From contig NZ_JABFDI010000011.1 of the NCBI RefSeq assembly GCF_013403915.1, forward strand, positions 1-64,000: DNA of 64,000 nt, written 5' to 3'. This DNA comes from Winogradskyella pacifica. GTDB taxonomy: Bacteria; Bacteroidota; Bacteroidia; Flavobacteriales; Flavobacteriaceae. How positions within the stretch are numbered: position 1 is the stretch's first letter; each line of letters opens with the position of its first letter. The notes under the pieces are model-generated. The model was not told where the DNA came from, did no database searches, and saw only the letters and a list, made by a program, of their open reading frames with translations. Both the position numbers and the translations under genes were made by a program. Below are positions 22,710 to 36,337 of this stretch, piece by piece.

Positions 22710-24401
22710 ATGAGTGACGATAAAAAAGTAATTTTTGCAATGTCTGGTCTAACAAAGACCTTTCCAGGAGCTAATACTCCTGTTTTAAAAAATATATATT
22801 TAAGTTTCTTTTATGGTGCTAAGATTGGTATTCTAGGTCTAAATGGTTCTGGTAAGTCTACACTTTTAAAGATCATAGCAGGAGTTGATAAAAACTATCA
22901 AGGTGATGTGGTTTTTCAACCGGGTTATACGGTTGGGTATTTAGAACAAGAACCGCAATTAGATGATGACAAAACGGTTATGGAAATTGTGCGCGAAGGT
23001 GCTGCAGAAACCGTTGCTATACTTGATGAATATAACAGTATTAATGATCAATTTGGTTTAGAGGAAGTGTATAGCGATGCCGATAAAATGGAAAAGCTAA
23101 TGAACCGTCAGGCAGAACTGCAAGATCAAATTGATGCTGCTAATGCTTGGGAATTAGATACTAAGTTAGAAATAGCCATGGACGCCTTAAGAACCCCAGA
23201 TGGTGATAAGAAAATTGGTGTGCTTTCTGGTGGTGAACGTCGCCGTGTAGCCTTATGTCGTTTATTATTACAAGAACCAGATGTATTATTATTAGATGAG
23301 CCTACTAACCACTTGGATGCAGAATCTGTACATTGGTTAGAGCATCATTTAGCACAATATAAAGGAACGGTTATCGCAGTAACTCACGATAGATATTTCT
23401 TAGATAATGTTGCAGGTTGGATTTTAGAACTCGATAGAGGTGAAGGAATTCCTTGGAAAGGAAATTATTCGTCTTGGTTAGATCAAAAGTCTACACGTAT
23501 GGCACAAGAAAGTAAAACAGCCTCTAAGCGTCAAAAGACATTAGAGCGTGAGCTAGATTGGGTACGTCAAGGTGCAAAAGGTCGTCAGACAAAGCAAAAA
23601 GCACGTTTGAAGAACTATGATAAATTAATGAGTCAAGATCAAAAGCAGCTTGACGAAAAATTAGAAATCTATATTCCTAATGGACCACGATTAGGAACAA
23701 ATGTAATCGAAGCTATTGGTGTTGCTAAGGGTTATGATGATAAATTACTGTACGATAATCTAAATTTCAATTTGCCTCAAGCAGGTATTGTTGGTATTAT
23801 TGGGCCAAATGGTGCTGGTAAAACGACTATTTTCAGAATGATAATGGGAGAAGAAGCATCAGATAAAGGTGAATTTAAAGTCGGAGAAACGGCTAAGATT
23901 GCATACGTTGATCAGAAACATTCTAATATTGATCCTGAAAAAACAATTTGGCAAAACTTTAGTGATGAGCAAGAATTGGTAATGATGGGTGGTAAGGAAG
24001 TAAATTCTAGAGCTTATTTAAGTCGATTTAACTTCTCTGGTGGTGAGCAAAACAAGAAAGTAAAATTGCTTTCGGGTGGTGAGCGTAACCGTTTACATCT
24101 CGCTATGACACTTAAAGAAGAAGGTAATGTATTACTTTTAGATGAGCCAACTAACGATTTAGATGTTAATACATTAAGAGCGTTAGAAGAAGGTTTAGAG
24201 AACTTTGCGGGTTGTGCTGTTGTTATTAGTCACGATAGGTGGTTCTTAGATAGAATCTGTACGCACATTTTAGCTTTTGAAGGAGATTCTCAAGTCTATT
24301 TCTTTGAAGGAGGATTTAGTGAATATGAAGAAAATAAGAAGAAACGTTTGGGTGGTGATTTAATGCCAAAACGAATTAAGTATAGAAAGTTGGTAAGGTA
24401 A
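22710..24401 (+). CDS. ettA: Energy-dependent translational throttle protein EttA (ABC-F)
   Basis: A 563-aa ABC-F ATPase with two nucleotide-binding domains and no membrane segments. Walker A motifs are GLNGSGKST and GPNGAGKTT, signature motifs LSGGERRR and LSGGERNR, Walker B motifs [11 protein letters not shown] and [11 protein letters not shown]. The linker between domains ([20 protein letters not shown] onward) is the P-site tRNA-interaction motif, and the C-terminus PKRIKYRKL is characteristic of EttA within the ABC-F group. EttA binds the ribosomal E site and gates the first elongation step according to the ATP/ADP ratio. Confidence 0.96.
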
Positions 24402-24420
24402 ATTTACCGACTATTGAAAC

Positions 24421-24453
24421 AAAAAAGAGCCAGCAAATTGCTGGCTCTTTTTT
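24421..24453. terminator. Bidirectional terminator between ettA and the small membrane genes
   Basis: GAGCCAGCA-AAT-TGCTGGCTC with A run before and T run after. It lies between ettA (ends 24401, +) and the minus-strand small ORF ending at 24461. Confidence 0.9.
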
Positions 24454-24460
24454 TTATGTT

Positions 24461-24619
24461 TTATTGATTTTCTAACTGTTTTATTTTTTCTTTCAATTTT
24501 CTAGATTTTAAATATTGTAAAGCCCATAAAATTGTCATTGTAACAAACCCAATTCCCAAAATACTTATCATTCGTTGAGAAGAGCCATCTAGAATAAGAG
24601 TAATCGCTGTTAAATTCAT
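24461..24619 (-). CDS. Small single-pass membrane protein, 52 aa
   Basis: A short frame from ATG at 24619 to TAA at 24461. The protein starts MNLTAITLILDGSSQRMI, has one hydrophobic helix (about 18-36: ISILGIGFVTMTILWAL) and ends in a basic, amphipathic tail (YLKSRKLKEKIKQLENQ). It starts 3 nt after the next upstream minus-strand ORF and its own stop lies 8 nt before a strong terminator, which supports it being real. The two proteins share a layout: one helix followed by KxKxENxKL-type tails. Function unknown. Confidence 0.55.
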   Translation of the reverse strand: MNLTAITLILDGSSQRMISILGIGFVTMTILWALQYLKSRKLKEKIKQLENQ

Positions 24620-24622
24620 TAT

Positions 24623-24847
24623 TTAATTATCACCATAAAGATGCCCGCTATGTAAATCTTCACCAGACTCTTCATAATCTTTATAAGCATTGGTTTGCAT
24701 TAATTTTTTGTTTTCCGATTTTAACTTATACATCTTAATGATGGCTATTAAAATAAAAACGAGAAAAATAGATGCTACGGCTATTAAGATCATCGTAAGC
24801 TGTGTAGTCGTCACAATCAAAGCCTTTGAAAGCAGGTTCTTATGCAT
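24623..24847 (-). CDS. Small single-pass membrane protein, 74 aa
   Basis: One strongly hydrophobic helix (about 18-40, MILIAVASIFLVFILIAII) followed by MYKLKSENKKLMQTNAYKDY and an acidic, His-containing end (EESGEDLHSGHLYGDN). The start may be the annotated ATG at 24847, which is embedded in an (AAT)n tract, or the internal Met at residue 19, which would begin the helix directly. It is coupled to the 52-aa gene after 3 nt. I do not recognise the family. Confidence 0.6.
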   Translation of the reverse strand: MHKNLLSKALIVTTTQLTMILIAVASIFLVFILIAIIKMYKLKSENKKLMQTNAYKDYEESGEDLHSGHLYGDN

Positions 24848-24863
24848 TATTATTATTATTATT
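24846..24863. repeat. Trinucleotide microsatellite (ATT)6 at a start codon
   Basis: Six perfect ATT units; on the minus strand the (AAT) tract runs directly into the ATG at 24847. Slippage would change leader length by 3 nt steps. Confidence 0.8.
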
Positions 24864-25174
24864 CGTTTTAGATTTGGGTTCTACAGCGCTAATATATAAA
24901 AAAAGTTAATGTTAAATACTTAATAGTAAATTATTTACAAACTATTAGTTTACAAACGCACCGATTAACTGTTGTATAAGTCCGTTAAACCACAGTGTTT
25001 TTAAGGTGAATATGAGGTTATTAAATTATTAAGAAATTTAATTTTCTTTCAATTTTCTGTAACAAATATTAAAAAACTGCTACCTATATTTTAGTAACTA
25101 AAGTTTTTGTAGTCTTAAAAAATTACCGAAATTGCTTAACAGAATGATGTTCAACTTTAATAACACTACACTAT
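24864..25174. other. Divergent intergenic region upstream of the AAA+ module
   Basis: No ORF of substance. It holds a direct repeat TTTACAAAC (around 24934 and 24949) and the bipartite CTGTAAC/ACCTATA element at 25057-25094. No exact TAnnTTTG promoter is visible on the plus strand, which makes the bipartite element the best promoter candidate. Confidence 0.5.
25057..25094 (+). promoter_or_regulatory. Bipartite CTGTAAC/ACCTATA motif, possible ECF-sigma promoter
   Basis: CTGTAACAAA at 25057-25066 and ACCTATA at 25082-25088. The same two blocks occur with identical spacing at 34463-34500, upstream of another gene. A GTAAC -35 block is typical of ECF-sigma promoters; the assignment is inference. 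It lies about 86 nt upstream of the module's first start codon. Confidence 0.5.
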
Positions 25175-26524
25175 ATGCCTGATGATTTTGATTTATTAGA
25201 AACCAATTCACAAGAGAAAGCTGAAAAAGTCGATGTAAATTGGGGAAAAGCCATTGACCAAATGAAGTCAAAGCTTGCTCAAGAAGATGACCCAGAAAGT
25301 CGTCAGAAAATATTAAACGCCACATTAGATAATGTGGTTGATATGGCAGAAAAAGACAGATCTACGTTATTAGATGCTATTAAGGATTTAACAGATTATC
25401 AGGACGAAGTCGGAATTATGTTTGAAGGTTTTTCAGCATTAAACGCTTCAGAACAAAAAATAATAGACGACGCTGTTAAGCGATTAGAGCGCGCAAAAGT
25501 TGAACTTGAGGATGCAAATAACAAACCAGACACTTGGTGGAATAACCTTTGGGGACGCAAAAGTAAAATAAATGATGCCGAAGCAGAACTTAAGAACGCT
25601 CAAAAAACACGTGATGCTGCAGATAATGAAGCAAAAGCAATGTTTCAGCAACGAATTGAAACAGCCGATGTTCAAACCTTATTAAATGAATTATCATTTA
25701 AGAGTCAAGCAGCGATTAAGCGTCTAAAAGACAGAGAAATTGAAATTAAGGAAGTTGAAGAAAGCCTTAAAACAGCTATTGTAGAGGCTTCTAATAATCA
25801 TACAAAAGCACTTCAAAAGAAAAAAGAAGTAGAAGATAAGCTAGAGACGGAATATGCGTTATTAAAACAAGCACGTCAAGCTTTAGAAGAAGTAGCAGAT
25901 AAGCAGTCAACTGATTATTCGGATGCTTTGAGTAAAGTAACCACTTTAGAGCAAAAAGTAGAAGAGTTAGAAGGTCTTAAGAATGCTTACACAACATTAG
26001 CTGCTTCAAAAGATAGTTTCGTACACAAGCATAACCTTACTATTAAAGTATTAACATCTTTACGTAGTAATTTACAAACGCACCGTGCAAAATTAAAGTC
26101 TGATACAGATGAGCGTTTAAAGTATTACGATGGTTATGTAGTGGCTTTAAAAGCACGTACAGATCAAGAATTTGCAGCAATCTTAGAACATTTAGGTGTT
26201 AAAACGGATGAACATATTGGAGTCACTTTAGCAGCGATGCATACCGCAAGTGCTAAAGCGCGTCAAGAAATGATGGATAATATTCCAGTGCACGAAAAAG
26301 TGATGCAGGGTGTTTATGGTAGTTATGCTGAAGCTTTACAAGAAATTCGAGAAAAAGATAAGTCTATTCAAAAGAATTTTGCTGAGCGTTACGGCATTGA
26401 TATGAAAGAAATTTTCGAAGATTACTACGCAGCAGATGCAAACGCACCTTCAGGAGGTGATGGAGGAGGAGAGCCAGCAGGTGAACCAAAGCCAGAAGCA
26501 GGAGATGATGATTTGTTAGGATAA
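25175..26524 (+). CDS. Coiled-coil protein, first gene of the AAA+ module
   Basis: A 449-aa soluble protein. Residues about 95-330 are nearly continuous heptad-type coiled coil rich in E/K/A/L (e.g. QALEEVADKQ, LEQKVEELEGLKNAYTTLAA), interrupted by a DTWWNNLWGRKSKIND segment near 118-133 that recalls an amphipathic membrane-contact stretch. The last 30 residues are disordered, Gly/Pro/Glu/Asp-rich, ending DDDLLG. No signal peptide. PspA-like or TelA-like filament proteins came to mind, but I see no diagnostic motif of either. The ATG at 25175 follows a long leader with an ECF-like element. It probably forms the structural or substrate component handled by the downstream AAA+ ATPase. Confidence 0.8.
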   Translation: MPDDFDLLETNSQEKAEKVDVNWGKAIDQMKSKLAQEDDPESRQKILNATLDNVVDMAEKDRSTLLDAIKDLTDYQDEVGIMFEGFSALNASEQKIIDDAVKRLERAKVELEDANNKPDTWWNNLWGRKSKINDAEAELKNAQKTRDAADNEAKAMFQQRIETADVQTLLNELSFKSQAAIKRLKDREIEIKEVEESLKTAIVEASNNHTKALQKKKEVEDKLETEYALLKQARQALEEVADKQSTDYSDALSKVTTLEQKVEELEGLKNAYTTLAASKDSFVHKHNLTIKVLTSLRSNLQTHRAKLKSDTDERLKYYDGYVVALKARTDQEFAAILEHLGVKTDEHIGVTLAAMHTASAKARQEMMDNIPVHEKVMQGVYGSYAEALQEIREKDKSIQKNFAERYGIDMKEIFEDYYAADANAPSGGDGGGEPAGEPKPEAGDDDLLG

Positions 26525-26529
26525 TAAGT

Positions 26530-26671
26530 AGTTGTTAGTTATCAGTATTCAGTTGGCAGTCAAATCGGGACTGAATACAGTGGCTAAAACTATATATTCA
26601 ATATCTTTTTTAAATAATATTTTTCAGGTATTCTTGGGACACTGCAAACTGAATACTGCCAACTGCCTACT
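26530..26671. repeat. Inverted pair of heptad arrays (AGTNNNN x5)
   Basis: 26530-26564 is five perfect-length heptamers AGTTGTT, AGTTATC, AGTATTC, AGTTGGC, AGTCAAA. 26637-26671 read on the minus strand is again five: AGTAGGC, AGTTGGC, AGTATTC, AGTTTGC, AGTGTCC. The arms are 35 nt each with a 72-nt spacer and can pair imperfectly. The right arm ends 3 nt before the ATG of the next gene. Confidence 0.75.
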
Positions 26672-26674
26672 AAA

Positions 26675-27721
26675 ATGATTGTAACACCATTAGATTCAGC
26701 AATATTAGATTCCAAAGAGCAATATGTATTCTATCACAAAATGATAGATTTCTCGCTGAAAGAACTCATTGTTGCTGTTCAACAAAAACAAATTTTAAAC
26801 CAACAAGAAGTACTTCTCTTTAAGCAATACAGCGATTTATTATTGTATTCTATTGAAGCTATGCGTGTAAAATACATGTATGACGATGAAGAAAACATGA
26901 AAGTCGATTTAACAGACTCTAGTTTTCCTAATTATTTAGAATTCCGTTACTTATTTAACGATTTAGCATTACGTGAAGATTATTTAGGAAAACTTACTGA
27001 CGTAGATACTTTAAAAGACGAATTTTTAGATACTTTAATGCGAAAGAAAGAACCTATAGCTAAGCGTAAGCTCTTTCAAGCAGCGTCAATAGTTTACTAT
27101 ACGTCTGCTAAAAAAGAATACATTTTTAATCGTTTTGTGCAAGGTAAAATTATAGCAGCACCAGAAGGTTCTGTTGCAGAGTATTTGGTGAGTTGGAGTT
27201 TTTATGATGTGTCTCACAACAGACCATTTATTTGCTACATGTATTTTGATTTCGATGGTAAAGATCCTTTAAAAGAACGGGATGAAATTTATAGTGCTTT
27301 AAAATCTATTGCAGACCGAGAAATGTCTTTAGATACGATGGCGTATGGTATAGATAAACGTCTTCCTAAAGTATTTCCAAAGCTCATAAAACGTGTGGAT
27401 TTAGGGCCAATTCATAACATATTTGCTAAAGACGAAAATAAAGTCACACATGCCATTTTACAAAGTATAGCAAATAAGGAAATCCCTTTAGAATCGTATG
27501 CGATTTCATTTAAAATAGATGAATTAAAATCGGCTAGCGAATTTAAAGAAGGTGGTTTTTTCAGTAAACAAACCTATCAACGTTGGGACGCTATGTTTAG
27601 ACAGCGTTATGTCTTTGCACCGCACAGAATCATACAAATGCTATATAATAAAACACCTGAAATTATGAATAAGTTAGCATTGTCGCCTATTCAGATTTCT
27701 GAATTAAAAATCGATAAATAA
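26675..27721 (+). CDS. Uncharacterised soluble protein, second gene of the AAA+ module
   Basis: A 348-aa protein with no signal peptide, membrane helix or motif that I recognise. Predicted alpha/beta: a helical N-terminal third (residues 1-80, rich in EQYVFYHKMIDFSLKEL type helices) and a mixed middle with VSWSFYDVSHNRPFICYMYFDFDGKD, then a helical region ending in PIQISELKID. The acidic YMYFDFDGKDP strand is the most distinctive stretch. Its start is tight against the right heptad array. By position it is likely a partner of the following ATPase, either an adaptor or a substrate receptor. Confidence 0.75.
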   Translation: MIVTPLDSAILDSKEQYVFYHKMIDFSLKELIVAVQQKQILNQQEVLLFKQYSDLLLYSIEAMRVKYMYDDEENMKVDLTDSSFPNYLEFRYLFNDLALREDYLGKLTDVDTLKDEFLDTLMRKKEPIAKRKLFQAASIVYYTSAKKEYIFNRFVQGKIIAAPEGSVAEYLVSWSFYDVSHNRPFICYMYFDFDGKDPLKERDEIYSALKSIADREMSLDTMAYGIDKRLPKVFPKLIKRVDLGPIHNIFAKDENKVTHAILQSIANKEIPLESYAISFKIDELKSASEFKEGGFFSKQTYQRWDAMFRQRYVFAPHRIIQMLYNKTPEIMNKLALSPIQISELKIDK

Positions 27722-27727
27722 GATGAA

Positions 27728-27785
27728 AGTTTGGAGTCTGAAGCTCGAAGATTCGAGTAAGAAAACTTTTTACTTTTCACTTTTC
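27728..27785 (+). repeat. Two adjacent heptad arrays (AGNNNNN x5, then ACTTTTN x3)
   Basis: Heptamers AGTTTGG, AGTCTGA, AGCTCGA, AGATTCG, AGTAAGA (27728-27762), then ACTTTTT, ACTTTTC, ACTTTTC (27765-27785), in register 7. They fill most of the spacer before the AAA+ gene; the end is 16 nt before its ATG. Confidence 0.7.
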
Positions 27786-27801
27786 ACCTATAACTCAATC
27801 A

Positions 27802-29757
27802 ATGGAACACAACTCAACTTTCCCTATAAAACAAAATGAATTAGATATGCTTCGCGATGAAGCAACATCATACTTAAAATCTATTCAATGGGAACAAGGT
27901 CAACGCGCTAAAAATAAAGATAACGACGCCAAAGACGAATCTATTTTATTGTATTTGTCTAGAGCCAATAACGGAAGCAATGTCAATGTCACTTCAGTTT
28001 CAAAAACCATTTTGGCTTTAAAAAAGCGTTTGCTTCCAGAATCAGTAGCACTTCCTATTTTCTTAAATCAGACATTATATGCTGTACAAGAAGGATTGAC
28101 TTTGGGTATATGGATTAAAGATTCGTACTATGATGCTTCAGGTTTATCGAGTTTAAGTGAAAATAAATCAGCTTTAGATAGTTCAGGAAGGAGAGAGTAC
28201 GAAAGCAAAATGCATACATCAACGGCTTTTATGTTGTTTGCTACAGCTTATAAAATTTTACATGATTTAAAACCGCATGCTTCAGACGATTTATCAGTGA
28301 TGAAGCAGAAGTTTGCTGGTATTCCAGAAGTGTCTTTTTTAACACCTTTAAAAGGAATTTCGTGTCAGTTGTTTTATTACGACAAGTATTTAGGTCATCC
28401 TGAAATTATAAAGTCAGATAAAGATGTTATAGATTTTACAGTGGTTTATTTTGAAGCTTTAATTGCAGAAATTCAACTACGTAAAAGCAGTTTAGAATAT
28501 ACAGAAACCGTTTCGGACCGAACGTATAAGCTTGAAAACTCAGACTTTGCAGTTTCCGGTTGGGAAAATATATTTCAAGGAACAGCAAAGAGTATAGAAT
28601 TCAACAAAATACAGTTCGAACAAATTGTCGGTAACAAGGATGCTAAACATTTTGGTCGTCGATTAACTGAACGTTTGTTAAGCTATGATATTGAAGCAAA
28701 GAAGAATCCATTTCAAGAATTAGGCGGATTTATGCCTGTTTTTATGGGTTACGGAATTCCAGGAACAGGAAAAAGTATGTTAATTGCTGCCATCGCCACC
28801 AGACTTAAAGAACATTCTGATAATTTAGATATTCCATTTTTATTCCACCCAATGCCAGATACGCTGATATCTACATTTCAAGGTGGTTCTGCCGAAAAAA
28901 TGGTAGAGTGGATGAAGCCTCTGCAAGATCCTACCAAATTAATTTTTGCACCAATTGATGATGCCGAAAATAATTTGCAAGAACGAACCGCTCAAGGAGT
29001 TTCAGCAGGTGTAAAAGAAGTGATTGGTGTATTTTTAAGATATACAGAAGGTGCTTATGCTGTGAATTACGGAAACAGTTCAATTGGTTTATTTACCAAC
29101 CTTCCAGAAATGCTAGATAAAGCGGTGATTTCTCGTGTGCAAGGTCGATTTAAAATTGATGGAGCACGCTCTGAGCACGATTTTGTAGATCAAGATTACA
29201 TCTGGTGGAAGAAGTTAAAAGATACCATGCCAGATTTTGTAAACATGAATGATCCGGAAGTTTATAAATACTTATCAGATCAGGGTTTAGCAAACAGTAT
29301 GGGCGAAATTTTGAATGCGGTTGAGCACCCTTCAGAAGAACGTGTTCATGATACGTTTAATAAAGTAGAAAAGCTTCACGAAAACAACGACCATATGTTT
29401 TATGCAGCTTTGTATAAAGAGATTCAGAAGATATTTCCGTTTTTCTCTTCAAGAGATGTTAGAAACATTCAATCTGCAATTTCATTACGATTAACAGATT
29501 TTGATTTAGAACAAGACTGGTTTGAAAATCCTGAAACCTATTTCAAAAAGGATTACGAAACGAAGTTCAATATGCTTCAAGAATTAATGAAATCGAATAT
29601 GAAAGGTTTAAACTTTTCAGATATAAGACGACAAGAAGTCATTCGCTATTTAGATAACGTAGCAACCATAGCTGATACAGACTTTAAACGAAAAGTAGAT
29701 GCGAGAGTGAATCAGATGAATATAGATAGTGAAGCTAGAGCGCAGTTTGGGAATTAA
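27802..29757 (+). CDS. AAA+ ATPase of the undescribed module
   Basis: A 651-aa soluble protein: ~300 residues of helical N-domain without known motifs, then one AAA+ core. Walker A is GYGIPGTGKSM (316-326), Walker B LIFAPIDDAEN (380-390) with an Asp-Asp-x-Glu arrangement instead of the usual Asp-Glu, a sensor-1-like SSIGLFTNLPEML stretch (426-438), and arginine-finger candidates in VISRVQGRF (442-450). GGSAEKMVEW after a phenylalanine is a pore-loop-like segment. A helical C-domain follows to residue 651. The layout suits a hexameric remodelling ATPase, not a transporter. Residues 281-286 (KHFGRR) may be an inter-domain linker. It carries no protease or nuclease domain. Confidence 0.85.
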   Translation: MEHNSTFPIKQNELDMLRDEATSYLKSIQWEQGQRAKNKDNDAKDESILLYLSRANNGSNVNVTSVSKTILALKKRLLPESVALPIFLNQTLYAVQEGLTLGIWIKDSYYDASGLSSLSENKSALDSSGRREYESKMHTSTAFMLFATAYKILHDLKPHASDDLSVMKQKFAGIPEVSFLTPLKGISCQLFYYDKYLGHPEIIKSDKDVIDFTVVYFEALIAEIQLRKSSLEYTETVSDRTYKLENSDFAVSGWENIFQGTAKSIEFNKIQFEQIVGNKDAKHFGRRLTERLLSYDIEAKKNPFQELGGFMPVFMGYGIPGTGKSMLIAAIATRLKEHSDNLDIPFLFHPMPDTLISTFQGGSAEKMVEWMKPLQDPTKLIFAPIDDAENNLQERTAQGVSAGVKEVIGVFLRYTEGAYAVNYGNSSIGLFTNLPEMLDKAVISRVQGRFKIDGARSEHDFVDQDYIWWKKLKDTMPDFVNMNDPEVYKYLSDQGLANSMGEILNAVEHPSEERVHDTFNKVEKLHENNDHMFYAALYKEIQKIFPFFSSRDVRNIQSAISLRLTDFDLEQDWFENPETYFKKDYETKFNMLQELMKSNMKGLNFSDIRRQEVIRYLDNVATIADTDFKRKVDARVNQMNIDSEARAQFGN

Positions 29758-29760
29758 ATT

Positions 29761-29788
29761 TAAAAGTGTAAAGTAAAAAGTGTGAAGT
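29761..29788 (+). repeat. Heptad array (NNNAAGT x4)
   Basis: TAAAAGT, GTAAAGT, AAAAAGT, GTGAAGT in tandem, beginning 3 nt after the AAA+ stop codon. On the opposite strand this reads ACTTNNN, like the second array at 27765-27785. Confidence 0.7.
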
Positions 29789-29790
29789 CT

Positions 29791-29818
29791 ATGTCATTCC
29801 GACACAGTGAATAACGAG
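29791..29818 (+). repeat. Degenerate member of the dispersed ATGTCA... element
   Basis: ATGTCATTCCGAC... resembles the 5' half of the element seen at 32501, 42358 and 48434, but the TGAGCGCAGTCGAA core is not preserved. Directly follows the heptad array. Confidence 0.35.
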
Positions 29819-29832
29819 CGACAATAAATTTT

Positions 29833-30420
29833 ATGAACAACCTAAAAAACATAACTAAAACAACCCTTTCAAAAGAATGGGCAAGATTAGATAGAATCGA
29901 TTATGATTATCAATTTAAAAATGGGGAATGGAAACGTTTATCACGGGAATGTTATAATCGAGGAAATGGTGCTGCGATATTACTATACAATGTAGAAAAA
30001 CAAACGGTTATTCTTACTAAACAGTTCCGTATGCCAGCTTATGAGAATAATAGTGGTGAAGGTATGTCAATTGAAGCCTGTGCAGGAGCAATTGACAATA
30101 ATGATAAGCCTTTAGAAACCATAATTAGGGAAACAGAAGAAGAGGTAGGTTATAAAATAAGTGATGCAAAACTAGTTTTAACAGCATATACATCACCTGG
30201 AGCTTTAACAGAAAAAATGTTCTTATTTATTGCAGAATATGATGAGAACATGAAATTTAGTAAAGGTGGGGGATTAGAAAGTGAAGATGAAGACATTGAA
30301 ATTCTTGAAATTCCGTTTTCAGAGGCTTTAGAAATGATTAAAAAAGAAGAGATTATTGATGCAAAAACGATTATGTTATTGCAATATGCTCAGATTAATA
30401 AAATTCTAATTCCTGAGTAG
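29833..30420 (+). CDS. Nudix hydrolase, NudK (GDP-mannose pyrophosphatase) type
   Basis: A 195-aa Nudix protein. The Nudix box runs from G85 to Y107: GAIDNND then REtEEEVGY, with Asp at the first Glu position as in NudK. The preceding EACAGAIDNNDKP and following YTSPGALTEKMFLFIAEYD are also NudK-like, and the N-terminal RLDRIDYDYQFKNG strand pair provides the dimer. NudK hydrolyses GDP-mannose and related sugar nucleotides. It sits in the middle of the AAA+ module but is bounded by repeat-containing spacers on both sides, so it may be an insertion and not a functional member. Confidence 0.88.
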   Translation: MNNLKNITKTTLSKEWARLDRIDYDYQFKNGEWKRLSRECYNRGNGAAILLYNVEKQTVILTKQFRMPAYENNSGEGMSIEACAGAIDNNDKPLETIIRETEEEVGYKISDAKLVLTAYTSPGALTEKMFLFIAEYDENMKFSKGGGLESEDEDIEILEIPFSEALEMIKKEEIIDAKTIMLLQYAQINKILIPE

Positions 30421-30550
30421 AAAGGAATGGAATGAAATAAAAAAAGAAGGTTAAATAAAACCAATGGTGTTTAGTGGGAAATAGTTTTAAAACCTATTAA
30501 TGATTTTTTGAGAGATTTAATTATAAATAATGAGATTACCGCTGAAGTTT

Positions 30551-30570
30551 ATCTTGAGCGAAGCCGAAAG
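30551..30570 (+). repeat. Dispersed repeat, variant copy (TGAGCGAAGCCGAA)
   Basis: TCTTGAGCGAAGCCGAAAG is a two-substitution variant of the core TTGAGCGCAGTCGAAAG found at 48441-48458. It lies 12 nt before the ATG at 30582. Confidence 0.55.
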
Positions 30571-30581
30571 ACAGCAACAAG

Positions 30582-31817
30582 ATGCAGAAACTAAAACAAG
30601 CCAATTTATACCGAAGCGAACTTATTCCCATTAGCGGAAAATTAGTAGAACGGTACAACAAATGCTTAAAGACTTTAGGCTTTACAGAAACAAAACTAAC
30701 ATCATTTTTTATTGATGGAGTAGGCTGGAGTCCTGAGGTTGCTGAAGAAAAAAGTAACATGCACTATCTTAATCATGGTGATGCAAATCCGCATGGGATT
30801 ATAATTTCACCATTACAAAAAGGGAAACCGGTGTATTTGCCTTTTCATTCTTTTGATAAGGAAATGATGCAACATGTTTTTAGAACGCATGGTCAAAAAA
30901 TTAATGATATTACAAGAGATTCTGCTATTTGCTTAGATTTTGATCAGAATATCGATGTGTTTTATGAGCCTTTAGATGTCTTGAAATATGATAAAATTAA
31001 TATCACATTCAAGCTTATAGATAACTTAGAACAGGTTCAAAAAGATCAGTTACATCTCGTTGATAAATTTAAAAATGGTAATAACTTTATAGATGAAGGC
31101 ATTCATCAACAATTACTAGATTCTGCAACTACTTATGGGGACTTAAGAGAAAGAGATTTAAGCTTACATCCGTTACAATTTAGAACAGATTCGTTTTACA
31201 CAAGAGCTTTTGACGGAGTGTATTTACTTCGCGATTTTATAAAACCGATAGTCGTTTTTGAAAGTAAAGAACATTATAAGGAAGCGATAAAAGATACCAT
31301 TCACGATGTGCTGATTTATCATATTGAGCAACCAGAATTAGTAGATAAGTTAAAAGATCATTTAATTATTGAATGTGATTTGGAGACGTTAGTAAAAACA
31401 CCAAATTACGATCGCGTTAAGAAGTTTGAATTAGCTCAGTTTTTAAAAGAGACTGAACATCCTATTAAGGATATTTTAAATGATAATGTATTATTTAAAA
31501 GTTATTTAAACAAAATAGACATCAATGCCAGAAAGCAAGTGATGAGTGTCGAAATATATCTCGAAAAGTTAGAACGTAGTAATGCCTATAAAATTGAAGA
31601 TATTGTAGATCAGGCCTTTTATTTTGCCTTGCATCAACCGCATTCATCGTTGTCTTCCGAGCATCGCGATTTAATTCATAAGTTACTCATTAACATTGCG
31701 CCAATGGATGTATTATTCTTGTATTGGTATGACAAAGAGCAGTTTTATATAAATTATTTGACTTGGGGTGATTCCTTTAAAGATTGGGTAATTGAAAGAA
31801 TCCGTAACAATATTTGA
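30582..31817 (+). CDS. Uncharacterised soluble protein of the AAA+ module, 411 aa
   Basis: No signal peptide or membrane helix. The N-terminal third (residues 1-120) contains CLKTLGFTETKLTSFFIDGVGWSPEVA and HGIIISPLQKGKPVYLPFHSFD, the best conserved-looking stretches; the middle has RERDLSLHPLQFRTDSFYTRAFDGVYLLRDF in segments, and the C-terminus is helical with several Trp/Tyr (MDVLFLYWYDKEQFYINYL). I cannot name the family. It shares strand, length class and spacing with the other module genes. Possible role: a second soluble partner of the ATPase or a regulator of the membrane subunits. Confidence 0.75.
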   Translation: MQKLKQANLYRSELIPISGKLVERYNKCLKTLGFTETKLTSFFIDGVGWSPEVAEEKSNMHYLNHGDANPHGIIISPLQKGKPVYLPFHSFDKEMMQHVFRTHGQKINDITRDSAICLDFDQNIDVFYEPLDVLKYDKINITFKLIDNLEQVQKDQLHLVDKFKNGNNFIDEGIHQQLLDSATTYGDLRERDLSLHPLQFRTDSFYTRAFDGVYLLRDFIKPIVVFESKEHYKEAIKDTIHDVLIYHIEQPELVDKLKDHLIIECDLETLVKTPNYDRVKKFELAQFLKETEHPIKDILNDNVLFKSYLNKIDINARKQVMSVEIYLEKLERSNAYKIEDIVDQAFYFALHQPHSSLSSEHRDLIHKLLINIAPMDVLFLYWYDKEQFYINYLTWGDSFKDWVIERIRNNI

Positions 31818-31896
31818 TAATTTTAGACTAATTTAGTAGAGCACTTTTTTTGCTCGCAAAGACGCAAAGAAAATATTAATTCAAGTTGTCAGCAAA

Positions 31897-31953
31897 CTTC
31901 TAGCTTCAAGCTTCGTGCTTCAATCTTAACTGCTTCCAACTTCTAACTTTTAC
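31897..31953 (+). repeat. Heptad array (CTTCNNN x8 with one 8-nt unit)
   Basis: CTTCTAG, CTTCAAG, CTTCGTG, CTTCAAT, CTTAACTG, CTTCCAA, CTTCTAA, CTTTTAC: 57 nt ending 4 nt before the ATG at 31958. Just before it, CTCGCAAAGACGCAAAG (from about 31854) is another motif that I recall as common between flavobacterial genes. Confidence 0.75.
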
Positions 31954-31957
31954 AACC

Positions 31958-32494
31958 ATGGGAATTGAACTCGTTATATTTATAGCCGCCATTTTATTCG
32001 GAATCTTTCTGTATTGGAGAGAGTCTAATAGCAATGCGACATATCGCTTTTTAAATAAAATAGTCAATAGTAAAGAGCTACAAATGAGTCCGGATAATCC
32101 AAAAGGATTTGTTTACCAACAATCACTTTTACCACGTATTATTTTTGTGGTTAGTTTGGTTTTGGTATCCGCGTTAATCGTAGAGTTCTTAACTCCAATT
32201 GCTGTTTTTAGTAGTTATAACGGCGTTTCTGCATTTGCATCTTTTGCCGTTGGAACACTTTTAGGAACCTATATCGCTGGTTTTGTAATTAAATCGTCTG
32301 AAGTTATTGAGGAACAAAGTGAATCCTTAGAAGACAAGTTTGATGATGTCGTTGAAAAAGGGAAAGATTTTATAGAGGATCTAAGAACCAGAGAGCCAAA
32401 AGTGGTTGAGGAAGCAAAGAAAGAAATTAAAACAGAACCTGAAGTAGAAAAGCCAAGTGCACGTGACCGTTTAAAAGATAAGGGATTAATGTAA
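31958..32494 (+). CDS. Membrane protein with charged cytoplasmic tail, AAA+ module
   Basis: 178 aa. Three hydrophobic helices: about 3-20 (IELVIFIAAILFGIFLYW), 61-84 (IIFVVSLVLVSALIVEFLTP) and 92-114 (ASFAVGTLLGTYIAGFVI). The remaining ~60 residues are a highly charged, helical tail (EEQSESLEDKFDDVVEKGKD..., KKEIKTEPEVEKPSARDRLKDKG). The tail is a natural docking site for the coiled-coil protein or the ATPase. I recognise no family. A dispersed-repeat copy begins 7 nt after its stop. Confidence 0.75.
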   Translation: MGIELVIFIAAILFGIFLYWRESNSNATYRFLNKIVNSKELQMSPDNPKGFVYQQSLLPRIIFVVSLVLVSALIVEFLTPIAVFSSYNGVSAFASFAVGTLLGTYIAGFVIKSSEVIEEQSESLEDKFDDVVEKGKDFIEDLRTREPKVVEEAKKEIKTEPEVEKPSARDRLKDKGLM

Positions 32495-32500
32495 TCCTAA

Positions 32501-32525
32501 ATGTCATACTGAGCGCAGTCGAAGT
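32501..32525 (+). repeat. Dispersed ~24-nt element, copy 1
   Basis: Begins ATGTCATACTGAGCGCAG and continues TCGAAGT. It starts 7 nt after a stop codon. The same element occurs at 42358-42382 (minus) and 48434-48458 (plus). Confidence 0.8.
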
Positions 32526-32614
32526 ATCTCATTAACATTAAAATATTTATAAAAATAACGAACAGATTGCCACAGTTGACACAAACGTCAACTTCGCAAT
32601 GATAAACAATTACT

Positions 32615-34312
32615 ATGATAAAATCATATTGGAATAAAGGCGGCAAACAAAAACGAATCACTGTTTTAGTAGTAGTGCTATTATTAGTGTTATTATTCTT
32701 TTTTAGAGATGATTATCAACCTGTTTTATTATTTCTAAGAAAGTATATTTTCATCATATTGGTAAGTGTAATACTTCTATTTTTAGGTTTACGTAAATTC
32801 AGAAAATCAGCAAAAGTAGGCAGTCGATTAGGTGTTTTAGCCTTGCTTATTGTCTTTTTTGGTGTATTATATGTTGTTGGTTGGCATTATCAAATGTATG
32901 ATTATATGAAAACGTACAATGTTTTCAAGAGTATAGATAAAGTTGAAATAAACGAATTACCACTAACCCAAAATGAACGTATTCAGCCTTTACGTAACGT
33001 TTTTTCTATGGCTAACGAAAGTGTTGGTGAAACTAAAGACGTGTCCTTACCGCATTTAGTAAGAGTAGATGGTCAGAATAAGTGGACTATGGCTATTCAG
33101 CCGAGTGAAAAGTACGTTATGCAACGTATTAGCGATAATACGGAAGAAGTGTTTTCAGTAAGTAGTACCACACCATTTCCTAGATTTTCTAATGAGAATC
33201 GTATCGATGTGACGTTTTCAATTGGTGAATCTTTAAAATTTAGTAGAAACACCTACAATGCCGTAGTGCAGCGCTTTAATCCTTGGATGCTGTTTAATCA
33301 TGAGCCTAGTGATACGTTTTATATGAAAAATGATAATGGCGAATGGGTGCAGGTGGTGAGTTTAATTAAATGGAAAGGTTTCTTTTTTCCTTATCCAAGT
33401 TTTGGAGGTGTGATGATTATTGAAAACGGAGAACATGATTTTAACGATTATATGGAGCGTATTTTAATAGGAAAAGGGACGTATGTAAGTCCAGAAGAGA
33501 TTAAAAATTACCCGTTCTTAATGAAGCAAAATACATTATCTGAAAAGGTGTCTCAACTTGAAGCCGAATCGTTAAAGTTCTTAGGTGGTTTTAGTGATCC
33601 TTTACCTTGGAATATGGAAACGGCCGTTAAGATACCGTTGATGCCAAAAGATCAGAATCAACAACCTTATGTTACTGATTTTAATTTTTCAGATTCAAAT
33701 TCAGATGCTTATAGTGGTTTATACCATTGGTTTGGGTTAGAACCCGTGGGTAATGAGCGTACTAGTTTAAGTTATAGTGTGTTTGTACCTGCTGACGGAA
33801 CAGACAAACTCTATTATTACGACCATGCGACTAAAAAACAAGGGTATGCTGGTGTTTCTGCAATGCCATTAAAAGTAAAAGAATCTCGTAAGGAATATGA
33901 TTGGACCGCCAGCACTCCTGTAGAATTTAGACCTTATATTAAAGACATCGCGGGTAGAAAGCGTATGTTTTTCTTAGGAACCATATCATCAATAAGTTCT
34001 ACAGATGCACAACAGTTTGACGGTTCTGCAACACCAGATTTAGTGTTGATAGACAGTGAATATAGAGATGTTATTTGGATAGATGTAAAACATCCAAGCA
34101 CCTGGGATGAGGAAGTTTATAAACAACTAAATGAAGCTTGGAGAGCTAGTGAGGGTATCGGTTATTTTTTTGATGAAAAACCAAAGGATGAAGATATTAT
34201 GGAGCAGCAAATGGATTCCTTAATGTCTATTCCGAGGATTGAAAATAATACCGATAAGATTAATACTTTACAGCGTCAGCTAGATTCTTTGAAGGCTGTT
34301 GGTGGACAGTAA
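32615..34312 (+). CDS. Three-helix membrane protein with large soluble domain, AAA+ module
   Basis: 565 aa. Hydrophobic segments at about 16-30 (TVLVVVLLLVLLFFF), 43-58 and 75-93, then ~450 residues that begin HYQMYDYMKTYNVFKSIDK. With a basic N-terminus the large domain probably faces the periplasm. It contains Trp/Tyr-rich strands (LIKWKGFFFPYPSFGG, DAYSGLYHWFGLEPVG, DLVLIDSEYRDVIWIDVKHP) and ends in a short coiled coil (KINTLQRQLDSLKAV). I recognise no family. It is the last gene of the module and is followed by a hairpin terminator. It may be the envelope-facing output or sensor of the system. Confidence 0.75.
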   Translation: MIKSYWNKGGKQKRITVLVVVLLLVLLFFFRDDYQPVLLFLRKYIFIILVSVILLFLGLRKFRKSAKVGSRLGVLALLIVFFGVLYVVGWHYQMYDYMKTYNVFKSIDKVEINELPLTQNERIQPLRNVFSMANESVGETKDVSLPHLVRVDGQNKWTMAIQPSEKYVMQRISDNTEEVFSVSSTTPFPRFSNENRIDVTFSIGESLKFSRNTYNAVVQRFNPWMLFNHEPSDTFYMKNDNGEWVQVVSLIKWKGFFFPYPSFGGVMIIENGEHDFNDYMERILIGKGTYVSPEEIKNYPFLMKQNTLSEKVSQLEAESLKFLGGFSDPLPWNMETAVKIPLMPKDQNQQPYVTDFNFSDSNSDAYSGLYHWFGLEPVGNERTSLSYSVFVPADGTDKLYYYDHATKKQGYAGVSAMPLKVKESRKEYDWTASTPVEFRPYIKDIAGRKRMFFLGTISSISSTDAQQFDGSATPDLVLIDSEYRDVIWIDVKHPSTWDEEVYKQLNEAWRASEGIGYFFDEKPKDEDIMEQQMDSLMSIPRIENNTDKINTLQRQLDSLKAVGGQ

Positions 34313-34337
34313 CATTTTAAAGTTATAAAATATTTTC

Positions 34338-34377
34338 AGATCTGTTAGATTTTAAAAACCTGACAGGTCTTTTTTAT
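34338..34377 (+). terminator. Palindromic hairpin/terminator (TTTTAAAAACCTGACAGG type)
   Basis: Imperfect palindrome from AGATCTGTTAGATTTT to AAAACCTGACAGGTCT followed by T6. It ends the AAA+ module. A related palindrome with the shared TTTTAAAAACCT centre lies at 46463-46489. Confidence 0.75.
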
Positions 34378-34462
34378 AAATGATATTTCAATTTGATAAA
34401 TAATTATTTTACTAAAATTACTTATTTAACATTCTGTTATTATTTCATAATCTATTAAAATA

Positions 34463-34500
34463 CTGTAACAAAACCTTCAAATTTAAGACCTATAATATAA
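34463..34500 (+). promoter_or_regulatory. Bipartite CTGTAAC/ACCTATA motif, second copy
   Basis: CTGTAACAAA at 34463-34472 and ACCTATA at 34488-34494, the same block order and spacing as at 25057-25094. It lies about 17 nt upstream of the ATG at 34511, a suitable promoter distance. Confidence 0.5.
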
Positions 34501-34510
34501 AGGTAATGTT

Positions 34511-34981
34511 ATGGGATACATGGGTTTGGGTTTGCAGAAATGGATTTATGGGATGCGTCCTCGTAAGCCATTTTCTATACAACGAAAGGGCTCATTTACT
34601 GCGGTTCCAACCTATAGTAGGGAATTTAAGCTTCAATACTCAAATAATAAAGGAAGTTATAATTTTGGAATAATATTGTTCCTTGTTATGGTGTTGGTTA
34701 TTACGTTATGTATTCCAAGTTGGTTAGACCATTCTAGGTTGCAACATAAGCAAGAATTGGCTTGGGCTATAAAGAAAGACAACGATGCTTTTAATTTTTT
34801 AATAAAATCAGGAAAGCAGCGTGTAAGTAAAGGCCGAATTTTAGGAGCATACTCCGAATTTAAACTCGCATATGCAATTAAGCCTAAAGATAAAGAGTTA
34901 AATCAATTGCTTTTAGAAACTCTAATAATTCTTTGTTTAGATTACAATAAATATTGTGATGATTTAATAAAACTAGAGTAG
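34511..34981 (+). CDS. Single-pass membrane protein with helical-repeat tail
   Basis: 156 aa. A basic N-terminal part (MGYMGLGLQKWIYGMRPRKP and KLQYSNNKGS) precedes one hydrophobic helix (about 52-73, NFGIILFLVMVLVITLCIP); the C-terminal ~80 residues look like a TPR-type helical pair (ELAWAIKKDNDAFNFLIKSG, KGRILGAYSEFKLAYAIKPK). I recall proteins with this MGYMG...KWIY...RPRK start in Flavobacteriaceae, function unknown. It shares its upstream bipartite element with the AAA+ module and is convergent with the RNA helicase gene. Confidence 0.7.
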   Translation: MGYMGLGLQKWIYGMRPRKPFSIQRKGSFTAVPTYSREFKLQYSNNKGSYNFGIILFLVMVLVITLCIPSWLDHSRLQHKQELAWAIKKDNDAFNFLIKSGKQRVSKGRILGAYSEFKLAYAIKPKDKELNQLLLETLIILCLDYNKYCDDLIKLE

Positions 34982-34987
34982 AAGCGT

Positions 34988-36337
34988 TTATTTCTTATTC
35001 CGCTGATTATAATTTTTATCACCTCTTGTTTTTGGCTTCTTATATTTTGCTGCAATTTTAAATTTGTAAGAACCACCTAAGTTTTCTTTAGAGTTCTTTT
35101 CAGATTTTTCATGAAACGCTGGTCCAGGAGCATCTTCATCACGACGTTTAATTGGGTTGTTTCGCTCACGAATTTGCGGACGCTCTTCTTCGATTAATTC
35201 TGTTGAAATCGTAACGTCTTCGGGAATCTCAAGGGTTTCAATTTTCATCTGCATTAATTCTTCAATGCGTTCTAAGCCTTCTTGCTCGCTTTCAGTAGAA
35301 AATAAAATAGTATGTCCTTCTTTTTCAGCACGACCAGTTCTACCAATTCTGTGCATGTAGTTTTCAGGATAATCGGGGGTGTCAAAATTAATAACATGAG
35401 AAACACCTTCAATATCTAAACCTCTTGCCATAACATCTGTGGCAACTAATAAGCGGTTTTCCCCTTCTCTAAATTGCTCAATACTACGCAACCTGTAATT
35501 TTGCGTTTTATTAGAGTGAATAACACAAGTTTCAGCAGGAAACAATTCTTCCAATTGATCAAAAAGACGATCTGCCATTTTCTTATAAGCCACAAAAATT
35601 AAGACTCTTGAGAATTGGTCTTTATCACGAAGCAAATGTTCTAACAGATTAACTTTAGTATAAAAATTAGGAACATTAAAACGTTCTTGTTTTATGTTTT
35701 CTAAAGGAGTACCAGAAACTGCGATTGATATTTTTGTTGGACTTTTAAAAAAGTCAGTAATTAAATCATCAACATCTTTAGTCATCGTAGCCGAATACAT
35801 AATGTTTTGACGACGCGGAGGTAAAATATCGAAAATATTAAGTAGTTGATGTCTAAAACCTAAGTCTAACATAACATCAACTTCATCAATTACTAATTTT
35901 TGAATGGACTTTAACTGTAAAACACGGCTCACAGCTAAATCATACAGTCGACCAGGAGTAGCAACAATGATGTCTTGACCTTGTGCAACAGCTTGTTTCT
36001 GTGTATTTATATTAGTACCACCGTAAACACCTAAAACACGATTGTTAATGTATTTAGAGAATTTTTCAATTTCACTAACAACTTGAACCACTAATTCACG
36101 TGTTGGTACTAAAATCAAAACTCTCGGATTTTCTTGTTGCGAAAATTTCAAATTTCTTAATATAGGCAACATATAGGCAAGGGTCTTACCAGTACCAGTT
36201 TGTGCAATACCAACGACATCTTTACCGGCAGCTACTACATTAAAAGATTCCGCCTGTATTGGAGTAGGAGTGTCAAATCCTAAATCGTCTAAAGCGTTAT
36301 ATAAAGGTGTATTTAAATTAAGGTCGTTAAAAGTCAC
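34988..36337 (-). CDS. DEAD-box type ATP-dependent RNA helicase with DEVD motif II
   Basis: 449 aa from a GTG start at 36337. Motifs: Q region FDTPTPIQ (21-28), motif I AQTGTGKT (45-52), Ia PTRELVVQV, Ib TPGR, motif II DEVD at 151-154 (instead of DEAD), SAT, IV ILIFVAYK-like, V VATDVMARGLDIEGV and VI HRIGRTGRAE. The C-terminal ~70 residues are a basic, low-complexity RNA-binding tail (KFKIAAKYKKPKTRGDKNYNQR in two parts). RhlE-like helicases act in ribosome assembly, RNA decay and cold adaptation. The motif II change is conservative (Ala to Val). Confidence 0.92.
   Translation of the reverse strand: MTFNDLNLNTPLYNALDDLGFDTPTPIQAESFNVVAAGKDVVGIAQTGTGKTLAYMLPILRNLKFSQQENPRVLILVPTRELVVQVVSEIEKFSKYINNRVLGVYGGTNINTQKQAVAQGQDIIVATPGRLYDLAVSRVLQLKSIQKLVIDEVDVMLDLGFRHQLLNIFDILPPRRQNIMYSATMTKDVDDLITDFFKSPTKISIAVSGTPLENIKQERFNVPNFYTKVNLLEHLLRDKDQFSRVLIFVAYKKMADRLFDQLEELFPAETCVIHSNKTQNYRLRSIEQFREGENRLLVATDVMARGLDIEGVSHVINFDTPDYPENYMHRIGRTGRAEKEGHTILFSTESEQEGLERIEELMQMKIETLEIPEDVTISTELIEEERPQIRERNNPIKRRDEDAPGPAFHEKSEKNSKENLGGSYKFKIAAKYKKPKTRGDKNYNQRNKK

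Follow-up and report, generated by a model that had tools for sequence, protein, structure and literature searches.

A conserved gene module around a classical AAA ATPase and a coiled-coil protein in Bacteroidota and Pseudomonadota, with a possible role at the inner membrane

Introduction

What might be done in the cell by six adjacent genes, one of which encodes an AAA ATPase whilst the other five encode proteins without a known function? The question is raised by positions 25175-34312 of a stretch of 64,000 nucleotides from Winogradskyella pacifica (contig NZ_JABFDI010000011.1; 'the window'), in which open reading frames (ORFs) of 449, 348, 651, 411, 178 and 565 aa all lie on the + strand. 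A machine of several conserved genes that has an AAA motor, is inherited almost entirely or not at all and occurs in two phyla can be expected to have a specific task in the cell, and searches of four of the five non-ATPase proteins against solved structures gave no relative worth naming. A reading of the DNA made without database searches (the original prediction) had described a same-strand block with a membrane-attached remodelling function; its observation was confirmed and its interpretation is partly supported. The six ORFs lie exactly where it placed them, but it overlooked a NUDIX hydrolase gene of 195 aa at 29833-30420, which brings the block to seven same-strand genes. The gene order is coiled-coil, 348, AAA, (NUDIX), 411 (DUF6638), 178, 565, as follows (E, expectation value).

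25175..26524, + strand: coiled-coil protein, 449 aa, core gene 1 (ORF; cross-phylum profile match)
26675..27721, + strand: soluble 348-aa protein without a known family, core gene 2 (ORF; Pfam scan)
27802..29757, + strand: classical AAA ATPase, 651 aa, core gene 3 (Pfam AAA, PF00004, E 1.1e-8)
29833..30420, + strand: NUDIX hydrolase, 195 aa, optional insert, not counted as a member (TIGR00052)
30582..31817, + strand: DUF6638 protein, 411 aa, core gene 4 (PF20343, E 3e-30)
31958..32494, + strand: 178-aa predicted inner-membrane protein with a charged tail, found in Bacteroidota loci (hydropathy)
32615..34312, + strand: 565-aa predicted membrane protein, found in Bacteroidota loci (hydropathy)

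Results

Conservation and co-inheritance in the Flavobacteriaceae

The ATPase was searched in one genome per species, which confirmed 308 related stretches, and the best 80 were kept as loci; the closest named relatives of the window ATPase were from Winogradskyella species, with identities of 98 % and lower. All six genes were present on one strand and in the same order in 74 of the 80 loci, the remaining six being stretches of 3.4-15.6 kb that stop inside the block.

Presence and absence were compared by running profiles of the coiled-coil, 348-aa, 411-aa and 565-aa families on 199 Flavobacteriaceae genomes with a completeness of at least 95 %; the count covers these four components, and the 199 genomes are kin. 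Strong matches to all four fell together in the same 66 genomes, and in 64 of these the four components were collinear on a single strand of one contig, spanning less than 16 kb. In one of the other two (G705) the 565-aa gene sits on a different contig from its three partners, and in the second, the single-contig genome G675 (C1), the components are spread over 0.85 Mb (at 1.83, 2.58 and 2.68 Mb) and are all retained. Partial matches to the 565-aa protein in G408 (1.7e-5) and to the coiled-coil protein in G729 (8.6e-4) were discarded as weak, as were second minor matches in G694, G727 and G732.

The inheritance of the four searched components is nearly all-or-none, chance adjacency is ruled out by the 74 complete loci and the 64 collinear genomes, and the six genes are one inherited module. 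Gene order had been the evidence on which the original prediction relied, with loss of adjacency in related genomes named as what would speak against it; in these loci and genomes the genes were neighbours.

Pairwise distances between the coiled-coil, 348-aa, DUF6638 and 565-aa proteins were intercorrelated at 0.59-0.74, and less so with those of the NUDIX protein (0.40-0.44) and of the ABC-F (0.27-0.36) and MarR (0.28-0.48) neighbours, although common ancestry accounts for part of any such correlation. The median distance was 0.14 for the ATPase and the coiled-coil protein, the value for the ATPase being lowered by the choice of loci on ATPase similarity, compared with 0.22-0.40 for the other four module proteins, 0.05 for ABC-F and 0.30 for MarR.

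Distribution beyond the Flavobacteriaceae

A check of co-occurrence and gene order across the Bacteroidota had been proposed with the original prediction; both were conserved there, but the core reaches further, into the Pseudomonadota. A single-sequence search with the ATPase in 392 genomes of the phylum gave 14 matches, six of which were strong and all from the same family; two loci among the eight weak matches were inspected and both were FtsH. Five of 197 genomes of the class matched the DUF6638 profile; apart from the source genome these were four genomes, from three other families. Their loci (L142-L145, the deep Bacteroidia loci) all possessed the six genes in order, with identities to the window proteins of 43-45 % (AAA), 28-30 % (411 aa), 29-32 % (348 aa), 26-29 % (coiled-coil) and 35-39 % (565 aa). 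Junction lengths, taken from mechanical ORF starts, were short: in L145 the genes between the 348-aa and the 565-aa gene, these two included, share 1-8 bases at each of their four junctions, and the five junctions of L143 span a 1-base overlap to an 11-base gap. L142 is similar to L143 apart from a 128-base gap 5' of the ATPase gene, and in L144 an additional ORF of 208 aa separates the 348-aa gene from the ATPase gene.

Among 72,556 plasmid records searched by tblastn, the ATPase matched 10 (E up to 1e-3) and the 411-aa protein matched exactly these (E up to 0.01), in the four Vibrio records over only 17 % of its length (E 2e-4 to 3e-4). The records comprised four from Sinorhizobium, four from Vibrio, one from Shinella and one from Rhizobium. 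Six of the 10 were inspected, and genes for a coiled-coil protein, a 348-like protein, an AAA ATPase and a DUF6638 protein were found in that order in all six. Direct tblastn of the window coiled-coil protein against the plasmids gave nothing, its kinship being visible by profiles only. Because the hmmsearch rows for L130, L131, L132 and L134 were circular (these sequences had built the profiles) and L133 and L135 were near copies, profiles of four Pseudomonadota sequences only were compared by hhalign with profiles of Bacteroidota only. The probabilities were 100 % for AAA (E 2e-61) and DUF6638 (E 2e-42), 99.9 % for the 348-aa protein (E 4e-31) and 98.4 % for the coiled-coil protein (E 5.6e-15, 296 columns), whilst five mismatched pairs used as negative controls all gave less than 1 %. 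As judged by these profiles, the core of coiled-coil, 348-aa, AAA and 411-aa genes is common to Bacteroidota and Pseudomonadota.

Only Bacteroidota loci yielded the 178-aa and 565-aa membrane proteins. In Sinorhizobium meliloti and Shinella the core is followed by a DUF2333 membrane protein, above the curated cut-off of Pfam, and all four Vibrio replicons with the core also carry a DUF2333 gene elsewhere, far from it (its place was seen in one replicon). No DUF2333 was found in 80 Bacteroidota genomes, in a search whose controls were silent too. The Vibrio replicons (NZ_CP062152, NZ_CP097357, NZ_CP015514 and CP099927) are 0.88-0.94 Mb long and typed as non-mobilizable, and the core adjoins the mfd gene in both replicons inspected. 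In S. meliloti CP090106 (L131, 13851-15686) a small gene with an endonuclease domain and an ISRm16-type transposase lie between the ATPase and DUF6638 genes; this 3.7-Mb record is labelled pSymB and, judging by its size, resembles a chromosome. The S. meliloti genes of the module may be SMc02729-SMc02734; the sole literature match for these numbers was a table row for SMc02733 without annotation.

Five scans of viral contigs revealed one contig with the core (L136, 359 kb), in the order DUF2333 (E 8e-91), coiled-coil, 348-like, a 0.9-kb gap, AAA and DUF6638. Near the core it encodes a spanin-like protein, peptide deformylase and a subunit of a phage-type exonuclease, but also SmpB and parts of FliG/FliM, and the contig is likely to be a giant phage. 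The short FliG middle-domain and FliM proteins lie near the module (239-1143); it would be unusual for a phage to carry part of the flagellar switch.

These occurrences bear on the possibility that the module serves stress or conflict, as a defence system or phage tool that kills or protects during infection. Its presence in 66 of the 199 genomes is patchy, in a wider sample of the phylum DUF6638 was found in only four of 296 genomes, the core occurs on Vibrio replicons and a phage-like contig, and the ATPase domain is weakly similar to IetA models (E 1.5e-5). However, the IetA match spans residues 317-497 only, a single viral contig was found in five scans, and the Vibrio ATPase had no match at E 1e-5 in 50,697 phage records. 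An ABC-F gene lies 0.3-4 kb upstream of the module in 63 of the 80 loci, and within the genus the ATPase is present in 34 of 37 genomes, completeness being 99 % for one genome without a match and 83-85 % for the other two. No nuclease, protease or toxin domain was found at the Pfam cut-off, as the original prediction had stated, and its view that this is not a standard defence system also held, described defence families covering the ATPase core or coiled-coil stretches at most. Since the locus mostly holds its position and the ATPase and coiled-coil protein change slowly, defence is less likely, and the conflict explanation is considered improbable.

The NUDIX protein belongs to the YffH/AdpP family (TIGR00052, 153.5 bits against a cut-off of 79.55). 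Its gene, between the ATPase and 411-aa genes, was present in 59 of the 80 Flavobacteriaceae loci with identities of 46-96 %; between AAA and DUF6638 it was found neither in the deep Bacteroidia loci L142-L145 nor in L130-L132, L134 and L136 (Pseudomonadota or phage-like). It is an optional guest gene and not a member of the module.

The ATPase

The ATPase possesses a single classical AAA domain at about residues 313-452, preceded by an N-terminal region of about 265 aa without an assigned family, in which Pfam gave no model up to E 1 and NCBIfam matches did not go below E 0.04. A profile of the ATPase compared with solved structures gave VCP-like/Cdc48, Rpt4, PCH2 and Vps4 as best matches, Vps4 (E 2.7e-7) coming after VCP/Cdc48 and Rpt4. 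No Pfam MIT domain was matched in the three ATPases scanned, the N-terminal region not being modelled. Ten ATPases were aligned, and the following segments were located.

28747..28773, + strand: Walker A, GYGIPGTGK, residues 316-324 (G318 and P320-K324 invariant in 10 of 10)
28867..28890, + strand: pore-loop-1-like segment ISTFQGGS, residues 356-363, of the form (I/V)SxxQG (S357, Q360 and G361 invariant, residue 359 aromatic in 10 of 10)
28945..28962, + strand: Walker B, ending in D386-D387 (aligned to IDE of VAT)

The second segment, which resembles a pore loop, aligns beside VAT. Asn433, Arg445 and Arg449 were also invariant in all 10 sequences. The three motifs quoted in the original prediction, GYGIPGTGKSM and IDDAEN here and DTWWNNLWGRKSK in the coiled-coil protein, are all present in the translations.

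The coiled-coil protein

The predicted structure of the coiled-coil protein is helical where confident, with a hairpin of helices at residues 166-239 and 246-328 (74 and 83 residues; predicted local distance difference test, pLDDT, 56-93 in the block, mostly above 70). An alignment of 80 sequences revealed conserved ends.

25181..25201, + strand: N-terminal motif DDFDLLE, residues 3-9 (residues 1-8 with a mean column conservation of 0.99, 80 sequences)
25529..25567, + strand: aromatic and basic loop DTWWNNLWGRKSK, residues 119-131, between predicted helices (alignment; helix ends of the model)
26507..26521, + strand: C-terminal motif DD(L/M)L(G/S), residues 445-449 (80-sequence alignment)

In the C-terminal motif, column conservation was 1.00 for D445, D446 and L448 and 0.89 for L447, compared with a mean of 0.69 in the variable, acidic and glycine-rich linker before it (residues 421-444). 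The counterpart of the N-terminal motif in deep Bacteroidia is SFDLLDQ, and the four deep Bacteroidia copies end in VNDLM plus one residue. The loop corresponds to WNILFGYKNSK-like segments in deep Bacteroidia and to EKIVGIFFKKK-like segments in the Pseudomonadota and the phage-like copy. Because these counterparts retain a hydrophobic and basic character, the alignment suggests contact of the loop with the membrane. By hydropathy, there was no membrane segment in the coiled-coil protein or in the other three core proteins.

Compared with solved structures, the profile of the coiled-coil protein matched keratin and designed coiled coils only. The closest structural neighbours of its model were components of ClyA-type toxins, with Z from 14.1 down to about 11, followed by F-BAR domains at about 9.7; these neighbours, together with the aromatic and basic loop, are what a membrane-inserting bundle of ClyA type or a curvature-binding bundle of F-BAR type, merely recycled by the ATPase, would lead one to expect. 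Against this, Z values up to about 13-14 may for long helices reflect a common arrangement only, as the tool itself warns; query template-modelling scores (TM-scores) of these neighbours were 0.14-0.35 among the rows shown, with unrelated coiled coils scoring alike, and hydropathy gave no membrane segment, and a bundle of this kind appears very unlikely. ESCRT-III chains were not among the structural neighbours listed, which excludes nothing.

The soluble and membrane partners

The original prediction had described two soluble proteins without known motifs, which holds for the 348-aa protein but not for the 411-aa protein, a DUF6638 member (105.9 bits against a cut-off of 27). Profiles of the 348-, 411- and 565-aa proteins revealed no noteworthy relative among solved structures, the best match of the 348-aa protein being a short stretch at E 0.019 and the 565-aa protein having none in the PDB at E up to 1. 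The DUF6638 protein was modelled well (pLDDT 87.5, predicted TM-score, pTM, 0.82), but neither solved structures nor viral folds matched it convincingly and no function was read from its fold, the best Foldseek values being E 0.034 (PDB) and 0.28 (BFVD) and the best VIA match having Z 4.6 and a root-mean-square deviation of 2.3 over 42 residues.

For the 178-aa protein, hydropathy agreed with the original prediction of a membrane protein with a charged tail, giving three membrane segments (two of four scored windows overlap), followed by an acidic tail. In 76 sequences, conservation was 0.88 in the last 14 residues compared with 0.55 in the preceding 24.

32456..32491, + strand: tail end of the 178-aa protein, SAR(D/E)RLKDKG(L/Y)-x (alignment; deep copies have DDWRKG near the end)

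The gene at the corresponding place in L142-L145 gave no BLASTP match, but a profile-profile comparison gave 97.1 % (E 5e-11). The conserved ends of the coiled-coil and 178-aa proteins are consistent with a possible docking role. For the 565-aa protein the three membrane segments of the original prediction were recovered by hydropathy (residues about 15-33, 37-55 and 72-90), whilst the stretch after the third, put outside by the positive-inside rule, is predicted to be 475 aa rather than about 450 aa. Homology of this protein to DUF2333 was not supported, as no Pfam match was found in three 565-type proteins and hhalign gave 1.8 % against three DUF2333 proteins.

The 565-aa or DUF2333 protein could also be the client of the ATPase. 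The module would then serve as an AAA chaperone in the assembly or switching of an envelope enzyme or channel, with the coiled-coil protein as no more than a scaffold or adaptor, as the MoxR-type ATPase RavA, with ViaA, probably does for respiratory enzymes. All 74 complete Flavobacteriaceae loci, and likewise the four deep Bacteroidia loci, end with a 565-type gene, and the two constant soluble partners resemble adaptors. Nevertheless, the ATPase is of the classical AAA family (PF00004), no MoxR or von Willebrand A model was matched at E up to 1 in the ATPases scanned, the 348-type proteins of five loci or the window 411-aa protein, and it is the membrane partner that varies by lineage whilst the coiled-coil protein does not. 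The chaperone explanation is rated as somewhat unlikely.

Surroundings of the module

Upstream, one terminator-like site was located 3' of the ABC-F ATPase gene.

24421..24453, + strand: terminator-like hairpin with a 15-pair stem and a T-rich tail (consensus match only)

This hairpin may separate the ABC-F gene from the module, although terminator-like sites showed no excess in 24300-35100 (four observed, 5.4 expected). A Bacteroidota promoter pattern had two matches in the window compared with 3.9 expected, and sigma-70-like sites numbered 45 compared with 45.3 expected. Downstream, 36378-39923 on the - strand encodes a protein of 1181 aa that has a TraB/PrgY/gumN domain close to the N-terminus and is otherwise, over a long stretch, without assignment. 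Two further large proteins with a C-terminal sorting domain of the Por secretion type are encoded at 49481-52732 (leucine-rich repeats) and 52962-60749 (2595 aa, fibronectin type III/cleaved adhesin).

Discussion

A possible membrane-linked machine

The module is probably a real cellular machine. The reading we tentatively lean towards, while holding it to be short of probable, is that of a membrane-linked, ATP-driven remodelling machine in which the ATPase acts on a coiled-coil assembly at the inner membrane. It is suggested because a classical AAA ring would have a coiled-coil protein and two soluble proteins as constant partners, whilst the membrane protein varies by lineage, the Bacteroidota and the rhizobial or phage-like loci each bringing their own membrane-protein gene. 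As a ring that is most likely hexameric and of the classical type (Vps4/Cdc48/FtsH-like), the ATPase would work on the coiled-coil protein, an elongated helical bundle whose aromatic and basic loop may touch or enter the inner leaflet of the membrane. In the Bacteroidota the ends of this protein (FDLL in front and DD(L/M)L behind a flexible linker) could be handles or docking sites. The 348-aa and DUF6638 proteins would be constant cytoplasmic partners, probably adaptors that couple the ring to its substrate, and an inner-membrane protein with a large outer domain (565 aa together with 178 aa in the Bacteroidota; DUF2333, presumed to be oriented likewise, in rhizobia and the phage-like contig) would anchor the complex and link it to the envelope, perhaps in the service of envelope or membrane integrity.

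Several observations weigh against this reading. The position of the catalytic glutamate in Walker B is occupied by aspartate in all 10 ATPases, and because of this replacement ATP hydrolysis could be slow or absent; the same change is present in the D2 ring of NSF. The model of the coiled-coil protein is weak overall (pLDDT 63, pTM 0.42), and Pseudomonadota and phage-like copies are without the C-terminal DDLL tail, so that the DD(L/M)L tail is not a universal handle. Distances of the ATPase and the 178-aa protein correlate less with the rest of the module (0.26-0.52), those of the ATPase as well with NUDIX (0.47) as with its partners. Genome G723 has a strong 565-aa-type match (contig C4, 175367-176872) without the coiled-coil, 348-aa and DUF6638 components, possibly a remnant or a gene with a separate role. 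Finally, no DUF2333-like ORF was seen by eye among the ORFs listed beside the core of Rhizobium leguminosarum.

This last point, the distant DUF2333 genes of Vibrio and the lack of hydropathy segments in all four core proteins would also fit a cytoplasmic coiled-coil scaffold or cytoskeletal element that is turned over by the ATPase, the membrane proteins being merely co-transcribed. However, the 565-aa gene follows the presence pattern of the other components with the one exception in G723, and the membrane genes of the deep Bacteroidia loci either overlap the core or lie almost directly against it, and a purely cytoplasmic scaffold is given little credence.

If membrane or envelope-complex remodelling were the function, the module would be a further bacterial route beside the known ones, PspA/Vipp1 and dynamin-like proteins. 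A bolder proposal, which we regard as rather doubtful, is that it represents a separate prokaryotic class of ATP-driven membrane remodelling, independent of PspA/ESCRT-III, with its own coiled-coil polymer, an Asp-type AAA ring, two dedicated adaptors and lineage-specific anchors, found in Bacteroidota as well as Pseudomonadota and acquired by at least one giant phage.

Comparison with known systems

The closest published idea, in the main text of PMC11237479, is that of PspA/Vipp1/ESCRT-III-Vps4, including bacterial PspA-AAA and Snf7-AAA neighbourhoods, where DUF6638 and DUF2333 occur 0 times. As in the module, a classical AAA ATPase shares an operon with a helical coiled-coil protein and with membrane proteins in these systems; the module has two constant partners in addition. 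No PspA or Snf7 domain was among the Pfam matches (E up to 1) of nine coiled-coil proteins, seven of them listed in full; 25 of the 28 families matched in the pooled scan were shown, and the three others leave room for a very weak match in L144 or L145. The families meant are PspA_IM30 (PF04012) and Snf7 (PF03357). As to likeness to ESCRT-III and Vps4, a long helical hairpin is predicted with low overall confidence and unspecific neighbours, and the window ATPase is assigned no further than to classical AAA, with Vps4 among its profile matches. The ATPase core is shared with Cdc48/VAT, Rpt and Vps4; unlike these, the module ATPase has one ATPase domain, a family-less N-terminal region of about 265 aa and Asp in place of the Walker B Glu.

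By eye, the coiled-coil protein is like TelA in being helical, of similar length and with a short hydrophobic and basic segment. Kinship was not supported: hhalign gave less than 1 % against four TelA proteins (with shallow profiles), no match to the TelA Pfam family (PF05816) was shown, and no TelA was found in the source genome. RavA-ViaA resembles the module in its ATPase, soluble partners and membrane link. IetAS shares the stretch of the ATPase matched by IetA, and no protease domain was found in the window module proteins; of Wadjet/Jet and Lamassu, JetC and LmuB were weakly matched over coiled-coil stretches only, and the module has no nuclease domain.

DUF6638 (PF20343) and DUF2333 (PF10095) are names of uncharacterised families and not of systems, the membrane proteins of S. 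meliloti, Shinella and the phage-like contig being DUF2333 members by the curated cut-off. In the open-licence PubMed Central papers searched, the term DUF6638 was not found, nor was a description of the module, and DUF2333 occurred in one paper, as uncharacterised, at a type VI secretion system hcp locus. As a gene system the module appears to be new, and it unites AAA, DUF6638 and DUF2333 parts that had already been named.

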